From Rhodopirellula sp. P2 (GTDB taxonomy: Bacteria > Planctomycetota > Planctomycetia > Pirellulales > Pirellulaceae): DNA of 64,000 bases. Position 1 is the first letter of the stretch. The number at the start of each line of letters is the position of its first letter. Shown here in pieces: positions 23,743 through 30,347 of the stretch. The DNA is taken from assembly GCF_028768465.1 (NCBI RefSeq), contig NZ_CP118225.1:5065001-5129000 (forward strand). Reading direction: 5' to 3'. Position numbers and translations under genes: made by a program. Below the pieces are notes generated by a model. The model was not told the DNA's origin, did not search any database, and saw only the letters and a list, made by a program, of their open reading frames with translations.

Positions 23743-24411
23743 ATGTTTCGAATCCTTGGGCTGCTAATTTGCCTTTCGACATCTATTGCTAATGGCGGTG
23801 TCGTTTACGAGCTGAACTTCGACTCAGCGATTCCGGCATACAGTCAGTCCGGTGGCGATGGATCACCAAGCTTGAACCTTACTGGTACAGGCTCCATAGG
23901 AAATGGCGCCGTACTATCATTCACCCCGGCGAACGCTAGTGACGGTGCCGTGAATTTCTTTTCAAACGTTTCACTGAATATGGGCGATTTGCTTGGCAAT
24001 CCGATTTCTACTCAGGCATCTGACTACACCTTCAGCTTTGATGCGAAAGTGGAGGGATTGGAATCTCCAAATACCAATGCATACGTCCAGGCGCAGTTCA
24101 AACTGGCTGGTGAAACGTACCAAAGTGGGTTCAACGTAACCGAGCAGTTTGCGAGCTATCAGTTCACGCTTCCAAGTGGTCCACTTGACCCTGCCGCATT
24201 CACCTCTGATTCACCTCGCCCAGAATTTCGATTCGATGTTTTTAGTATCGGGAGCCGGTTCGGTACGGACACTGGCAACTCTCTCTCGGTAGATAACTTG
24301 CGTATTTCAGAAGTCACCGCCGTTCCAGAACCCTCTTCGATGGCACTGTTAGCGATCGGTGGTGCGGGGCTTGTCTGGCGTCGTCGCAGAGCGAACAAGT
24401 CAGCAGCCTGA
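23743..24411 (+). CDS. PEP-CTERM sorting domain protein
   Basis: This 222-residue secreted protein has a signal peptide (MFRILGLLICLSTSIANGG), a beta-rich body beginning VVYELNFDSAIPAYSQSGG and a C-terminal PEP-CTERM sorting signal: VPEPSSMALLAIGGAGLVW followed by RRRR. In exosortase-bearing bacteria this signal directs envelope sorting of proteins linked to extracellular matrix production. The body may be a carbohydrate-binding-like jelly roll (FSFDAKVEGLESPNTNAYVQ), but I cannot name the family. The DNA looks clearly less GC-rich than its neighbours (roughly half by eye), and it lies between two repeat regions, which suggests acquisition by transfer. No exosortase gene is in the window. Confidence 0.9.
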   Translation: MFRILGLLICLSTSIANGGVVYELNFDSAIPAYSQSGGDGSPSLNLTGTGSIGNGAVLSFTPANASDGAVNFFSNVSLNMGDLLGNPISTQASDYTFSFDAKVEGLESPNTNAYVQAQFKLAGETYQSGFNVTEQFASYQFTLPSGPLDPAAFTSDSPRPEFRFDVFSIGSRFGTDTGNSLSVDNLRISEVTAVPEPSSMALLAIGGAGLVWRRRRANKSAA

Positions 24412-24503
24412 CCATCGATCAATGCCGCTAGGTCCTGGCAAACAAAATCCACTCCAAGGCATCCTCATCAACGTGAGGGTGCCTTTTTTGTTGCCCGCCT
24501 CGA

Positions 24504-26276
24504 GATCCGGATGCTGCCATCCACGAATAACCTCCAACCAGTCGCGAAGCGATGACAGGCACCAGCCTCGGACGCGATTCCGAGGACAGCAAGAGGAACC
24601 GAACCACCAGTCGCGAAGCGACGGCAGGCGTCTCACCGCCGGGCCAACACCTGCCATCGCTCCGCGACTTTCCTGTGGTGGGGCCCTGATTCCTGGGACT
24701 CGCGTCCCAGGCTGCTGCCTGCCGTCGCTTGGCGACTCTGAAACCGCCGCCGCGTCGATTGCATCTTCGCGACGATCCACCGAACACTGCCCCGCATGCA
24801 CGACGATCTGAGCGCCACGGCAACGCCCCAACCAGCAATCACCTCCAGGAGATCCGGATGGTGCCATCCACGAATCACCACGAATCACCTCCAACCAGTC
24901 GCGAAGCGACGACAGGCACCAGCCTCGGACGCAAGTCCGAGGACAGCAAGAGGAACCGAACCACCAGTCGCGAAGCGACGGCAGGCGTCTCACCGCCGGG
25001 CCAACACCTGCCATCGCTCCGCGACTTTCCTGTGGTTGGTGCCCTGATTCCTGGGACTCGCGTCCCAGGCTGCTGCCTGCCGTCGCTTGGCGACTCAGAA
25101 ACCGCCGCCGCGTCGATTGCATCTTCGCGACGGACCGCCGAACACTGCCCCGCATGCACGACGATCTGAGCGCCACGGCAACGCCCCAACCAGCAATCAC
25201 CTCCAGGAGATCCGGATGGTGCCATCCACGATTCAACTCCACCCACGAATCACCTCCAACCAGTCGCGAAGCGATGACAGGCGCCAGCCTCGGACGCAAG
25301 TCCGAGGACAGCAAGAGGAACCGAACCACCAGTCGCAAAGCGACGGCAGGCGTCTCACCGCCGGGCCAACACCTGCCATCGCTCCGCGACTTTCCTGTGG
25401 TGGGTGCCCTGATTCCTGGGACTTGCGTCCCAGGCTGCTGCCTGCCGTCGCTTTGGCGACTCAGAAACCGCCGCCGCGTCGATTGCATCGTCGCGACGAT
25501 CCGCCGAACACTGCCCCGCATGCACGACGATCTGAGCGCCACGGCAACGCCCCAACCAGCAATCACCTCCAGGAGATCCGGATGGTGCCATCCACGCAGA
25601 TCCGGATGGTGCCATCCACGATTCAACTCCACCCACAAATCACCTCCAACCAGTCGCGAAGCGATGACAGGCGCCAGCCTCGGACGCAAGTCCGAGGACA
25701 GCAAGAGGAACCGAACCACCAGTCGCAAAGCGACGGCAGGCGTCTCACCGCCGGGCCAACACCTGCCATCGCTCCGCGACTTTCCAGTGGTGGGTGCCCT
25801 GATTCCTGGGACTTGCGTCCCAGGCTGGTGCACGCCGTCGCTTAGCGACTCTGACACCGCCGCCGCGTCGATTGCATCGTCGCGACGATCCATCGAACAC
25901 TGCCCCGCATGCACGACGATCTGAGCGCCACGGCAACGCCCCAACCAGCAATCACCTCCAGCAGATCCGGATGGTGCCATCCACGAATCACCTCCAACCA
26001 GTCGCGAAGCGATGACAGGCGCCAGCCTCGGACGCAAGTCCGAGGACAGCAAGAGGAACCGAACCAACAGTCGCAAAGCGACGGCAGGCGTCTCACCGCT
26101 GGGCCAACACCTGCCATCGCTCCGCGACTTTCCAGTGGTGGGTGCCCTGATTCCTGGGACTTGCGTCCCAGGCTGGTGCACGCCGTCGCTTGGCGACTCT
26201 GAAACCGCCGCCGCGTCGATTGCATCGTCGCGACGGACCGCCGAATGCAGCCCCGCTTGCACGACGATCTGAGCGT
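24504..26276. repeat. Tandem array of five ~350-390 bp hairpin-rich units
   Basis: Five units start with GATCCGGATG at 24504, 24851, 25209, 25575 and 25964, giving lengths of 347, 358, 366 and 389 bp plus a last, shorter unit that decays at about 26276. Each unit contains, in the same order, two GTCGC-GAA(or AAA)-GCGAC mini-hairpins, an 8-bp hairpin CCTCGGAC/GTCCGAGG with a GCAA loop, an 8-bp hairpin CCTGGGAC/GTCCCAGG with a TCGC or TTGC loop, and a GTCGC-TTG-GCGAC hairpin; unit 2 shows them at 24898, 24923, 24967, 25050 and 25082. Unit 4 begins with a 24-bp internal duplication. Units differ by point changes and by indels that are not multiples of three, yet stop codons are rare in several frames, producing long spurious frames on both strands (up to about 620 residues). 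I see no real gene here. The DUF1501 gene ends just outside it. Confidence 0.88.
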
Positions 26277-26307: not shown

Positions 26308-27717
26308 CTACGCGAACAAGTCGTGAACCACTTTGCCTGCAACATCCGTCAGCCGGAAATCTCGACCGGCATGGCGATAGGTCAGTTGTTCGTGATCGAG
26401 TCCCACCAGATGCAACATCGTGGCGTGCAAGTCGTGCAGGTGAACTTTGTTTTCGATCGCGTAGTAGCCGTACTCGTCCGTCGCGCCGTACTGGATGCCG
26501 GTCTTCAATCCAGCGCCCGCCATCCACATCGTGAACCCTTCCGGGTTGTGGTCGCGTCCGTCCTGCCCAGATCCCTGGCACGTTGGCGTGCGGCCAAACT
26601 CGCCTCCCCACAACACCAGCGTGTCCTCCAACAAACCGCGAGCCTTCAGGTCTTTCAACAAGCCTGCAATCGGCAAATCCACCTCCGCAGCGTTCTGCGT
26701 GTGACCTTTGCGGAGGTTGCCATGTTGGTCCCACTGCACCTCCGTGTTGCTGTGCGTGATCTGCACAAACCGGACGCCTCGCTCAGCAAATCGGCGTGCC
26801 ATCAGACATTGGCGACCAAAGTCGGCCGTGGTTTCGTGGTCGATGCCATACAGCTTGTGCGTTGCCGCCGTTTCGGATTCCAAGTCCAATGCCTCCGGCA
26901 TCTCGGTCTGCATTCGGAATGCCAACTCAAAGGACTTGATCCGCGCTTCGAGTGCTGAGTCTGGACCGGTGGTTTCCAGAAACCCGCGGTTCATCGACTG
27001 GGCCAGATCCAGCTGCATCCGCTGTGCTTCCAGAGACAGTCGTGCGTTCTTCACAAACTTCACGCGAGCCTGATCGGACGGTTGGCTGGCGTTGCCGATC
27101 GGGGTCCCCGAAACGCTGGCGGGCAAAAATGCCGAACCCCAGTTTTTCGTGCCACCATGCGCCAGCGTCGGACAGATCGTGATGAACCCCGGCAGGTTCT
27201 GGTTCTCCGTCCCCAATCCATAAGTGACCCACGACCCCATGCTGGGCCGCACGAACACATCGCTGCCCGTGTGCAACTTCATGCTCGCCCCACCATGTGC
27301 CGGGTTGGTGCCGTGCAGCGAATTGATGATGCACAAGTCGTCGACACACTCGGCAACGTGTGGGAACAATTCGCTGACCGCGATGCCGCTCTCACCGTAT
27401 TGTTTGAACTTCCAAGGCGAAGCCAACAGGTTGCTGGTCGGAGCAAACTGGACTCGCGGTTTTTCGAACGGCAATGGTTTGCCGTCGTCCTTTTGCAGTT
27501 GTGGCTTGTAATCAAACGTGTCCATGTGAGACGGGCCGCCCTTCATGAACAGAAAGATGACACGTTTCGCTTTCGGTGCGAAATGCGGGGCCCCCAAACC
27601 GAGCGACTCGGCGGTGCCGCCGGACGCTCGGACTTCGTCAGCCAACAACGATGCCAACGCCAGCGATCCAAAACCAGCAGCGGTGGTCTGCAAAAGGTGT
27701 CGTCGATTGAATTGCAT
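26308..27717 (-). CDS. DUF1501 family secreted protein (sulfatase-like fold)
   Basis: This protein of 469 residues has a Tat-type leader (MQFNRRHLLQTTAAGFGSL) and the alkaline-phosphatase-superfamily-like DUF1501 domain, with landmarks such as VIFLFMKGGPSHMDTFDYKP, HGGASMKLHTGSDVF and LVLWGGEFGRTPTCQGSGQDG, HDHNPEG-like DHNPEGFTMW near the end. Function is unknown; in planctomycetes the gene almost always follows a DUF1549/DUF1553 cytochrome gene, as here (62 bp downstream of it). The start at 27717 is preferred over an upstream start because the twin-arginine leader then begins directly. The region before it is CT-rich and has no clear Shine-Dalgarno sequence. Its 3' end abuts the tandem repeat array. 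Confidence 0.9.
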   Translation of the reverse strand: MQFNRRHLLQTTAAGFGSLALASLLADEVRASGGTAESLGLGAPHFAPKAKRVIFLFMKGGPSHMDTFDYKPQLQKDDGKPLPFEKPRVQFAPTSNLLASPWKFKQYGESGIAVSELFPHVAECVDDLCIINSLHGTNPAHGGASMKLHTGSDVFVRPSMGSWVTYGLGTENQNLPGFITICPTLAHGGTKNWGSAFLPASVSGTPIGNASQPSDQARVKFVKNARLSLEAQRMQLDLAQSMNRGFLETTGPDSALEARIKSFELAFRMQTEMPEALDLESETAATHKLYGIDHETTADFGRQCLMARRFAERGVRFVQITHSNTEVQWDQHGNLRKGHTQNAAEVDLPIAGLLKDLKARGLLEDTLVLWGGEFGRTPTCQGSGQDGRDHNPEGFTMWMAGAGLKTGIQYGATDEYGYYAIENKVHLHDLHATMLHLVGLDHEQLTYRHAGRDFRLTDVAGKVVHDLFA

Positions 27718-27779
27718 CAGATCAGGAGGGAAGGAAGGAGGCGGGACTTCATTGGAGGAAGCGAAGTTTTCGACGATTC

Positions 27780-30347
27780 CTAACGGACGTAAACGAACTC
27801 GCTGGACGAAACCACGGCTTGGCAGAACGCTTGCCAGGCCGATCGCTCCCAACCCAATCCGCCGTCAGCGGGCTCAGACTTGTTCTGGTGCAGAAGCGTT
27901 TCAAACTGCGAGAGGAAGCGAAGGCCATCGGAAATCTCCACGTCGCTGGGCGGTCTCCCATAAGCTTCCAAGTACAACCGGCGGACTCGCTGGGCAGAGT
28001 CGGTGTTGTCTTCCAGCAAACGATCCGCCAACGCAAATGTCAGGTCGGACACCATTTCCGAGTTCATCAGGAACAAAGCCTGCGGCGCGATCGTGCTGGT
28101 GTTTCGATCACCGGTCAAAACGCTCGCGTCGGTGTAGTCGAACAATTGAAACATGTCATACAGGTGATTGCGAATCACGGGCACGTAGATCGAACGCCGG
28201 GTTGAATCGTATTTGGATTTGTCCTGCGACGTGTGATTGAACACGTACTCACGGTTCTTGTACTGCATGATGTTCCCGCCCGTGGTCCGGTCAAGCTGAC
28301 CACTGACGGCCAACAACCCGTCACGAATCGCCTCGGCTTCCAATCGCCGCAAACTGTATCGCCAGTACCACTGGTTGCCAGGATCCAGCTCCGCGTTTGA
28401 CGCGTCAAAGTCGCTGCTACGTTGGTAGGTTTGCGACAACAGGATCATCCGGTGCATCGCCTTGATCGACCAACCTTCCTCGACGAATCGAACCGCCAAC
28501 CAATCCAGCAACTCCGGATGGGTTGGTGGGCTACCTTTCAGCCCAAAGTTGTCGACGGTGCTGACCAACCCTTTGCCGAAGTGGCCTCGCCACAGCCGGT
28601 TGACCATCACGCGGGCGGTCAGCGGATGGCGTCCATTGGTCAGCCAGCGAGCGAACTGAAGGCGACCGCTTTGCATCACTGGAATCGCGGGTTGGTCATC
28701 CAAAGCCAAAACCTCCGGCACGCGGCGAGCCACAACGTCGCCGAGTGTCAGGTGACTGCCTCGAAGATGAACAGCGGTGTCCACAATCTCACCATCCACC
28801 ACGCCCATCGCGGTCGGCAATTCTGGAGTCGCCTCCTTCCACGTCGTCAATTCCTCCCGAAGCGTTTTGAGCTCCGCCTGAATCTCCGCCGGAAATTGCT
28901 TCTCGACTTCATCGGGTTTGGCGTCGGTATCCGCTGGAGGATCCAAATCGGACTTGGCGGCTGCAACCCGGTCAGCGATCAACTTTTCTCGAGCGGCGAT
29001 CCTTTCTTTGTGTGCAGTCAGTTCCGCAGCTTGCTCGGGTGTTTCAATCGAGTTCTCGTGCCACTTGGCGACCGTCTTGTAACTGTCCATCGTTTGCGTG
29101 CTTTGAAAGATCCCAGCCAACCCGTAGTAGTCGTGGTGGCTGATCGGATCAAACTTGTGCGTGTGACAGCGGGCACATCCGAGCGTCAGCCCCAGCAAAC
29201 TGCGACCGACGGTGTCGATCTGCTCGTCGATGATGTCCATTTCCATCTTGGCTTCGTCCTGCTCGGCCAAAACTTTCGGCCCCAACACCAGGAAACCCGT
29301 CGCGATCAAACGCTCGTGACGAAGTTCCACGTCATCGCCGGAATCCAGCAGATCGCCCGCCAATTGTTCGACCACGAATTCGTTGTAAGGCTTGTCCTCG
29401 TTGAGCGATTGCACGACGTAATCGCGGTAGCGCCAGGCGTTCCCATGAACCACGTTTTCGTCGAGACCGTTTGAATCGGCGTAGCGTGCGACGTCCAACC
29501 AGTGGCGTCCCCACCGTTCACCGTAATGAGGCGACGCGAGCAAACGATCGACCACGCTAGCGAACGCATCGCGAGAATCATCGGCCAGAAAGGATTCGAC
29601 TTCCTCTGGTGTCGGCGGCAACCCGGTCACGTCAAACGTGACTCGCCGCAGCAACGTTCGCTTGTCGGCCGGTGGATTGGGACGCAAGCCATTGGCTCGC
29701 AATTCAGCCAGCACAAACGCATCGATCGGGTTCGGAGCGTCTGTGGATGCATTGCCAACCGCTGGCGGAATGGCTTTGACGGGCAGTTGGAACGCCCAAT
29801 GCTTGCGGCCTTCCTGCACATCGACCTCGCCCCGCTGGACGATCGGCCCCACGGTGTTGGAATCGGGATGTGGCGCCCCCATCTCGACCCACCGGATTAC
29901 GTCTGCGATTTGGACATCGGACAACTTCTCATCCGGTGGCATCTTCAAATCATTGTCTTGATAGCGGACCGCGGTCACCAACAAACTGCTGGTGGGTTTC
30001 CCCGGAACCAGAGACGCACCCGCCAATCCGCCCGTCAGCATGCCCGCCAAAGTGTCGACACGGAGTTCCGATTCCTGAGAGTCCTCACCATGGCACTCGT
30101 AACAGTGATCAATCAGCAGCGGACGAATTTTGGACTCAAAGAAGTCAAGCTGTTCCGCCGTGGCCTGCACTGTTTCGATCTGCTCGGTATCCTCCGCGGA
30201 CTGAGCAGCGATCGGGCTCATCACCAACCAGCCCCACACAGCACAAATCACGATTCGCTGCATCAGCCCGATTCCCAAGCCGACCGGATGCGAACGAACG
30301 TCGGCACCGTGGTCGACGAGCGGTCTTCCCAAATGGATCAGATGCAT
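27780..30347 (-). CDS. PSD1 / planctomycete cytochrome c (DUF1549-DUF1553) protein
   Basis: This exported protein of 855 residues has a signal segment (IVICAVWGWLVMSPIAAQSA), then a planctomycete cytochrome c domain with the heme motif CYECH in IDHCYECHGEDSQESELRVD, the DUF1549 domain (DAFVLAELRANGLRPNPPAD, RVTFDVTGLPPTPEEVESFL), a second CXXCH in GCARCHTHKFDPISHHDYYG, and the DUF1553 domain (ARVMVNRLWRGHFGKGLVST and LLDWLAVRFVEEGWSIKAMH). Family function is unknown; a periplasmic redox or polysaccharide-related enzyme is often suggested. The start at 30347 has the strong Shine-Dalgarno AGGAG seven bases upstream, overlapping the stop of the FecR-LamG gene, so the two are translationally linked. 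Second gene from the end of a four-gene leftward operon. Confidence 0.93.
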   Translation of the reverse strand: MHLIHLGRPLVDHGADVRSHPVGLGIGLMQRIVICAVWGWLVMSPIAAQSAEDTEQIETVQATAEQLDFFESKIRPLLIDHCYECHGEDSQESELRVDTLAGMLTGGLAGASLVPGKPTSSLLVTAVRYQDNDLKMPPDEKLSDVQIADVIRWVEMGAPHPDSNTVGPIVQRGEVDVQEGRKHWAFQLPVKAIPPAVGNASTDAPNPIDAFVLAELRANGLRPNPPADKRTLLRRVTFDVTGLPPTPEEVESFLADDSRDAFASVVDRLLASPHYGERWGRHWLDVARYADSNGLDENVVHGNAWRYRDYVVQSLNEDKPYNEFVVEQLAGDLLDSGDDVELRHERLIATGFLVLGPKVLAEQDEAKMEMDIIDEQIDTVGRSLLGLTLGCARCHTHKFDPISHHDYYGLAGIFQSTQTMDSYKTVAKWHENSIETPEQAAELTAHKERIAAREKLIADRVAAAKSDLDPPADTDAKPDEVEKQFPAEIQAELKTLREELTTWKEATPELPTAMGVVDGEIVDTAVHLRGSHLTLGDVVARRVPEVLALDDQPAIPVMQSGRLQFARWLTNGRHPLTARVMVNRLWRGHFGKGLVSTVDNFGLKGSPPTHPELLDWLAVRFVEEGWSIKAMHRMILLSQTYQRSSDFDASNAELDPGNQWYWRYSLRRLEAEAIRDGLLAVSGQLDRTTGGNIMQYKNREYVFNHTSQDKSKYDSTRRSIYVPVIRNHLYDMFQLFDYTDASVLTGDRNTSTIAPQALFLMNSEMVSDLTFALADRLLEDNTDSAQRVRRLYLEAYGRPPSDVEISDGLRFLSQFETLLHQNKSEPADGGLGWERSAWQAFCQAVVSSSEFVYVR

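Follow-up and report, generated by a model that had tools for sequence, protein, structure and literature searches.

The subject of this work is a tandem array of hairpin-rich units in the genome of Rhodopirellula sp. P2, located in a stretch of 64,000 nucleotides (contig NZ_CP118225.1, positions 5,065,001 to 5,129,000 of the forward strand) that is referred to below as the window. The array lies between a PEP-CTERM gene and a DUF1501 gene and is composed of five head-to-tail units whose starts are spaced by 357, 365, 390 and 348 bp, in agreement with a preliminary description of the window, made from its sequence alone, which had proposed five tandem units of about 350 bp. Tandem Repeats Finder reported a period of 348, 4.8 copies, 91% matches and a score of 2756. 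Each unit comprises a core of 198-200 bp, built of inverted hairpin pairs, and a spacer of approximately 150-190 bp. The 46-nt ends of the core match the Rfam family Acido-Lenti-1 (AL1, RF01687). Since AL1 is found beside one type of transposase gene, TnpA-Y1 subclass 1.2, in several bacterial groups, this 'RNA' is most likely the DNA target of that enzyme. We consider it highly probable that the array is a tandem, non-autonomous mobile DNA element similar to REPINs and BIMEs (bacterial interspersed mosaic elements), with AL1 ends that serve as the single-strand target of a subclass 1.2 transposase.

The core consists of two inverted halves, each of which has, from the outside inward, a short hairpin (HP2), a linker, a long hairpin (HP1) and an inner short hairpin. 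In all five units it starts with AGTCGC and ends with GCGACT, and the two inner short hairpins facing each other are found in every unit. The hairpins that had been placed at 24898, 24923, 24967, 25050 and 25082 in unit 2 are all exactly there, and a sixth one per unit, with a mismatched foot, had been overlooked (its stem starts at 25013 in unit 2). The hairpins were described as perfectly conserved, which proved too strong: the first one ends with GCGAT and not GCGAC in four of the five units, and in unit 1 one pair of the 8-bp hairpin is broken (24935). The AL1 motif itself is built of an 8-bp hairpin, CT, a linker and a 5-bp hairpin. Ten matches to it were found in the window, one per strand in each unit; six of them, at least one in every unit, reached the gathering score of the covariance model (37 bits), and the others scored 35.3 (three) and 26.1 bits. 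Neither the match to a named Rfam family nor the link to a transposase had been noted in the preliminary description.

Table 1 Coordinates of the array, its parts and other features (window positions unless a contig is named)
Feature	Position	Strand	Remarks
Whole tandem array, five units	24517-26275		repeat analysis
Core element, unit 1	24540-24737		198 bp
Core element, unit 2	24897-25095		199 bp
Core element, unit 3	25262-25461		200 bp
Core element, unit 4	25652-25850		199 bp
Core element, unit 5	26000-26198		199 bp
AL1 match, unit 1 left end	24540-24585	-	26.1 bits (below gathering score 37)
AL1 match, unit 1 right end	24692-24737	+	44.4 bits
AL1 match, unit 2 left end	24897-24942	-	48.0 bits
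AL1 match, unit 2 right end	25050-25095	+	44.4 bits
AL1 match, unit 3 left end	25262-25307	-	35.3 bits (below gathering score)
AL1 match, unit 3 right end	25415-25461	+	41.5 bits
AL1 match, unit 4 left end	25652-25697	-	35.3 bits (below gathering score)
AL1 match, unit 4 right end	25805-25850	+	43.2 bits
AL1 match, unit 5 left end	26000-26045	-	35.3 bits (below gathering score)
AL1 match, unit 5 right end	26153-26198	+	40.4 bits
Inner short hairpin site, unit 2	24966-24985	-	5-bp hairpin only; partner at 25007-25026
Inner short hairpin site, unit 2	25007-25026	+	stem from 25013; A-C mismatch at stem foot in 5/5 units
Tandem block of ~1 kb x3 with transposase gene (L053)	G000:C1:6437933-6440373		AL1 elements around
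PEP-CTERM gene	23743-24411	+	neighbour, outside array; ends 105 bp ahead of it
DUF1501 gene	26308-27852	-	neighbour, outside array; converges on it

In Weinberg et al. 2010 (PMC2864571) Acido-Lenti-1, scored 'y', figures among the probable RNAs and is assigned to Acidobacteria and Lentisphaerae. Its Rfam type is sRNA, and papers of 2023 and 2026 still list it as a non-coding RNA (PMC10059132, PMC13298647), one of them stating that it may have a part in the regulation of proteases. By the Rfam threshold (6/10 matches) the 46-nt ends in the window are members of this family, but here the motif behaves as the end of a DNA element and, as judged by record titles, it stands beside one transposase type in further phyla. 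No paper on a link between AL1 and a transposase was found in the open literature, supplements, preprints and subscription papers being outside the search. Transposase loci were collected from public genomes with the transposase protein alignment alone, DH[VA]H and WQ serving as search patterns, and the best 80 of 571 confirmed loci were analyzed. Their record titles name Planctomycetota, Acidobacteriota, Verrucomicrobiota, Bacteroidota, Deltaproteobacteria, Zixibacteria, Calditrichota and others; the motif Y---Q--HH is present in 77, DHxH in 72 and WQ in all 80. An Rfam scan at the family's own thresholds revealed 62 AL1 matches in 27 of these loci, crowded next to the gene: 42 in 39.7 kb at 0-250 bp (1.06 per kb), 14 in 37.3 kb at 250-500 bp (0.38 per kb), 5 in 71.0 kb at 500-1000 bp (0.07 per kb), 1 in 68.1 kb at 1-1.5 kb (0.015 per kb) and none in 194.8 kb at 1.5-3 kb. 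The nearest upstream match was on the minus strand in 17/22 loci, 58-192 bp away, and the nearest downstream match on the plus strand in 14/18 (38-66 bp away in 13, 256 bp in one). AL1 occurred on both sides of the gene in 13 loci, with the nearest matches inverted in 10 of them. Among the 53 loci without AL1, a generic two-hairpin shape was found 17 times in 21 kb within 200 bp of the gene (0.81 per kb) and 7 times in 173 kb at 1-3 kb (0.04 per kb); it was present within 500 bp in 12 of the 53, in some probably by chance.

The same link was seen at the level of whole genomes. In 119 genomes of the phylum, the Rhodopirellula sp. P2 genome included, AL1 (threshold E 1e-5) was found in 25 (22 over the Rfam cut-off) and the transposase (threshold E 1e-12) in 23; 20 genomes had both, five AL1 only, three the transposase only and 91 neither (Fisher p 3.3e-15; 1.4e-14 when the own genome is excluded). 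The sequence of the element tracks that of the transposase (Mantel r 0.465, p 0.0001, uncorrected for host kinship) over 19 loci, namely the 17 of the 27 AL1 loci that carry a 46-nt element and two types from the own genome.

The genome of Rhodopirellula sp. P2 (G000) contains 13 Y1_Tnp matches. Seven of them, five of which are distinct, carry DH[VA]H, WQ and YIxxQxEHH and may be assigned to TnpA-Y1 subclass 1.2 by this motif signature; DHVH is present in four of the five distinct proteins and DHAH in one, with WQ and Y---Q--HH in all. AL1 arrays surround two of the five types. One transposase sits inside the array at 5454 kb; another type, encoded three times with an identical protein product at distances of 1000 and 994 bp, is found at 6438-6440 kb amid AL1 elements. 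Divergent two-hairpin elements, which either score below the Rfam threshold or are missing from the Rfam matches, are located near the other three. A descriptor demanding perfect stems detected 8, 6, 4, 1 and 7 two-hairpin elements around the five types, within a distance of approximately 1.5 kb; of the six other Y1 genes, one had any such element nearby. Two of the five proteins were scanned against NCBIfam models: with NF047646 (RAYT proper, cut-off 80) they scored 24.4 and 29.7 bits, and with NF033573 (cut-off 55) one scored 76.5 and the other 54.4 bits. One own-genome transposase compared by phmmer with two ISHp608 TnpA sequences gave E values of 9.5e-8 and 1e-7. Four other Y1_Tnp genes (L046, L048, L049 and L051) have NH.H and Y----Q-like motifs and resemble class 3 as given in PMC6006769; no Rfam AL1 match lies within 4 kb of them. 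Within 700 bp of L049 there are two AL1-like two-hairpin elements that belong to the same family as those around L045.

At least 130 AL1 matches were counted in this genome, in 39 clusters, 18 of them with at least three matches; these counts are lower bounds because 150 of the 1757 candidates were scored. Many of the clusters are tandem arrays. Two solitary elements, L016 (205 bp) and L029 (203 bp, both measured between the outer feet), were used as queries, and their alignments of at least 170 bp to 13 of the 21 fetched stretches started within 3 bases of the left foot in 109/126 and 61/77 cases and ended within 3 bases of the right foot in 90/126 and 52/77. The boundaries thus fall at the outer hairpin feet, and the double-ended piece of approximately 200-205 bp is the dispersing unit. 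A dispersed repeat of about 135 bp (L029:1810-1945) stands beside one solitary element, with many copies in three relatives (G003, G004 and G006) and some in G000. The best match of the window array in its own genome is the array at 5454 kb, in which the stem CCTGGGAC is identical and the stem CCTCGGAC is matched over 7 of its 8 bp; because of these shared stems the enzyme encoded at G000:C1:5454426-5454872 appears to be the likeliest partner of the window family. By eye, the array at 5454 kb (L052, 1-600) seems to border a DUF1501-type gene too. A closer relative of the window unit (80% over 241 bp) occurs at another site in the genome of a relative, G009, with no transposase in its 3.2-kb locus. 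A plasmid origin was considered and rejected, unit 2 having no match in a plasmid collection by distant blastn.

The structure of the family was analyzed in an alignment of 45 elements, of which the window contributed 5, other parts of this genome 14 and other genomes 26; they were hand-picked among the 46-nt AL1 matches with other lengths and near-duplicates left out. In this alignment 99.1% of the cells are paired, both partners change in 12 of the 13 pairs, and the covariation score of 0.708 compares with 0.197 after shuffling and a maximum of 0.088 when the partners are slid. The structure is proven because these 45 related elements covary, and not from the window units, which are too alike for selection on pairing to be provable within the window. 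The compensatory substitutions support a structured nucleic acid selected for pairing rather than coding, as had been suggested from the five units; related arrays exist in this genome and in others, and among the roles named at that time the mobile element is the one that holds best. Two features are invariant: the T that opens the HP1 loop and the CT that immediately follows HP1. On the AL1 strand the HP1 loop is TGAA in 12 elements, TGAC in 10, TTGC in 5 and other sequences in the rest, and on the opposite strand it is of the GNRA type in 14, eight of these being GCAA or GCGA. Two details of the preliminary description do not hold for the family. The loop always starts with T on the AL1 strand and 31/45 loops are non-GNRA on the other, which rules out a preserved GNRA tetraloop as the selected feature; and the d(GCGAAGC) mini-hairpin is ruled out as a general one by the presence of the loop GAA (TTC on the other strand) in 13/45 elements, with TCC in 23/45.

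The site of the array was compared in the four relatives with the best-matching DUF1501 gene (83-90%), and the array was absent from all four (G003, G004, G006 and G009). About 30 bp stand in place of the 1.9 kb of the window in G009, and the other three have a different sequence between the flanking genes; related elements are found elsewhere in G003 and G004. These comparisons show a lineage-specific gain or loss of the array and not a mechanism. A solitary element lies at 655 kb, and the corresponding site in G004 measures 109 bp instead of 684 (approximately 575 bp shorter); a target duplication was looked for there and could not be read, as other sequence at the site also differs. In three relatives (L175, L176 and L177) the position of the array, next to the DUF1501 gene, appears by eye to be occupied by a gene for a small thioredoxin-like protein. 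A terminator-like hairpin followed by a T run was noticed by eye at 24456-24490, after the PEP-CTERM gene and just before the array.

By analogy with known REP (repetitive extragenic palindromic) systems we infer that the subclass 1.2 HUH/tyrosine enzyme would bind the AL1 hairpins when the DNA is single-stranded and cleave it at the outer HP2 foot, at C|T where this is present, and that this cleavage would spread the element. The outer HP2 foot is where the similarity within the family ends. The TnpA-REP of Escherichia coli cuts single-strand REP DNA 5′ or 3′ at C|T (PMC8266576), and in the 45 elements the outer foot is C|T in 32, T|T in 7, C|A in 4 and C|G in 2. The HUH and tyrosine motifs of the enzymes, together with their similarity to IS608 TnpA, fit this proposed mechanism. 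Arrays may then lengthen through successive insertions or when copies recombine. A more far-reaching version, which we put forward tentatively and regard as rather unlikely, is that AL1 is a misread DNA element targeted by the whole of subclass 1.2 and that the enzyme itself builds the long head-to-tail arrays, perhaps via single-strand circles or rolling replication, catching even its own gene (triplicated block at 6437.9-6440.4 kb).

The element has much in common with the 'REPtrons' formed by REPs, REPINs or BIMEs and their RAYT (REP-associated tyrosine transposase, TnpA-REP): inverted hairpin pairs that are both dispersed and clustered, and a low-copy HUH/Y1 gene inside a repeat cluster, although the latter is not so for the window array itself. 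Like REPINs and BIMEs, the inverted AL1 pairs are dispersed, in most alignments, as a double-ended piece of 203-205 bp. The differences from REPs are an end made of two dissimilar hairpins (8 bp and 5 bp), another subclass of transposase, and cores of approximately 200 bp repeated at roughly 220-390 bp. In insertion sequences of the IS200/IS605 type the left and right hairpins lie on the same strand; here the orientation differs, being inverted in 10/13 two-sided loci and the same in 3, and the transposase is similar to IS200/IS608 TnpA (ISHp608). TnpA-Y1 subclass 1.2 is listed without a REP in Quentin et al. 2018 (PMC6006769), with which the present proteins share DHxH, WQ, Y---Q--HH and a length near 150 amino acids; in contrast to the published picture, two-hairpin elements flank the gene in many of our loci. 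The same paper describes class 3 TnpA-Y1 from Planctomycetes and Acidobacteria, flanked by 'atypical secondary structures' and with about 600 copies in Solibacter, which differs by the motifs NHVH, W[TA] and Y----Q and by the foot CnGA. CGTC-tagged REPs are also short palindromes, often in inverted dimers, and a CGTC string occurs at the 5-bp hairpin of the window; their tag is unpaired, and no dedicated transposase is reported for them in Di Nocera et al. 2013 (PMC3733652), whereas here GTC is within the stem and the CGTC string is not conserved in the AL1 family.

Several observations weigh against a REPIN-like element served by a subclass 1.2 enzyme. The GT[AG]G foot of known REPs was found in 0/45 elements, either before the 5-bp hairpin or in its linker; this, the two unlike hairpins and the other enzyme subclass place the element outside the classical REP families, and we file it, by analogy, as one that may work like a REPIN or REPtron without belonging to them. 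C|T at the outer foot is limited to 32/45 elements, which leaves two readings: a cut that varies from family to family, or an analogy that is only loose. There is no Y1 gene anywhere in the 64-kb window, and the empty sites in the relatives are too diverged for the exact insertion point or target to be read. AL1 above threshold is missing near three of the five own-genome transposases (one has matches of 34.3 and 27.0 bits nearby) and from 53/80 public loci, 35 of them Bacteroidota by title; it is present in 1/36 Bacteroidota-titled loci as compared with 26/44 others. The inverted pattern is broken in 9/40 nearest matches, and L090, L101 and L128 have the same strand on both sides. Five genomes (G030, G060, G070, G099 and G108) have AL1 without the transposase at E 1e-12, and three have the transposase without AL1 (G036, full-length; G107 and G126, interrupted or split). 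The Mantel test, moreover, takes no account of host kinship. Two of the genomes lacking a subclass 1.2 transposase at that threshold, G030 and G060, are planctomycete genomes with many AL1 matches, for which a lost enzyme, an incomplete assembly or another partner are offered as alternatives.

It is possible, if doubtful, that the array is an inert duplication, in which the enzyme seeded one old copy, unequal recombination did the rest and the hairpins have no present role at this site. The window units are 93-97% identical to unit 2, as compared with 76% for the next array in this genome; a perfect 24-bp tandem duplication is present at 25574-25620, in the spacer between units 3 and 4; and the triplication of the ~1-kb transposase block with the same protein indicates that amplification can extend beyond the element and need not respect its limits. 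Against this, arrays built in the same way are found at many sites of the genome, and the stems of the window units vary less than the rest. With gapped columns left out, 2/72 stem columns are variable as opposed to 28/231 of all others (loops 4/20, core linkers 8/106, spacers 16/105). Comparison of the stems with everything else gave p = 0.022, with loops p = 0.019, and with loops and core linkers together p = 0.089; the difference is weak, points toward constraint and is suggestive only.

We regard it as improbable that AL1 is, as published, a small structured RNA whose hairpins act after transcription as a terminator, an mRNA stabiliser or a protein-binding RNA, the transposase link being secondary. 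The Rfam type and the published 'y' score speak for an RNA, as do the five AL1-positive genomes without a transposase at E 1e-12 and the location of the window array between convergent genes, where read-through hairpins could matter. Stable folding is also in its favor: three pieces of 46 nt, two of which were folded for each strand, did better than dinucleotide shuffles, with z-scores of -2.4 to -4.0 as RNA, although the 5-bp hairpin gave way to other pairs in one RNA fold of the five (minus strand of 25050-25095). As DNA, however, the same pieces gave z-scores of -3.1 to -4.5, stronger than those of RNA in 5/5 folds compared. AL1 mostly occurs in inverted pairs, so that both strands carry the motif, it is often located on both sides of the transposase gene in opposite orientation, and its presence tracks a DNA transposase, all of which argues against a function at the RNA level.

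A repetitive protein encoded by the minus-strand frame 24400-26262, which is open for 620 codons, is very hard to credit. Three of the four spacings are multiples of three, contrary to the preliminary statement that unit length varies by other indels, but the spacing of 365, for which that statement is right, disrupts the reading frame. Several frames are open simultaneously, the three array frames scanned yielded no Pfam match above cut-off (best PF06322, 20.7 versus 29.8 bits), and the array is absent from this site in four relatives. AL1 elements and group II introns can occur as neighbours, and it was considered whether the hairpins are targets of such introns or integron-like attC sites, an extremely unlikely explanation that is largely refuted here by 0 matches to RF00029 (group II intron) in this genome at E 0.001 and by the lack of a recombinase among the seven neighbouring proteins scanned.

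The interpretation of the array as a mobile DNA element with AL1 ends joins two orphans, an Rfam family listed as non-coding RNA and a transposase subclass for which no target had been described. Should it be true, the existing annotations of AL1 as an RNA would have to be read as ends of a DNA element, and recognition of two hairpins without a GTAG foot would be testable with an enzyme of approximately 150 residues and a 46-nt oligonucleotide.
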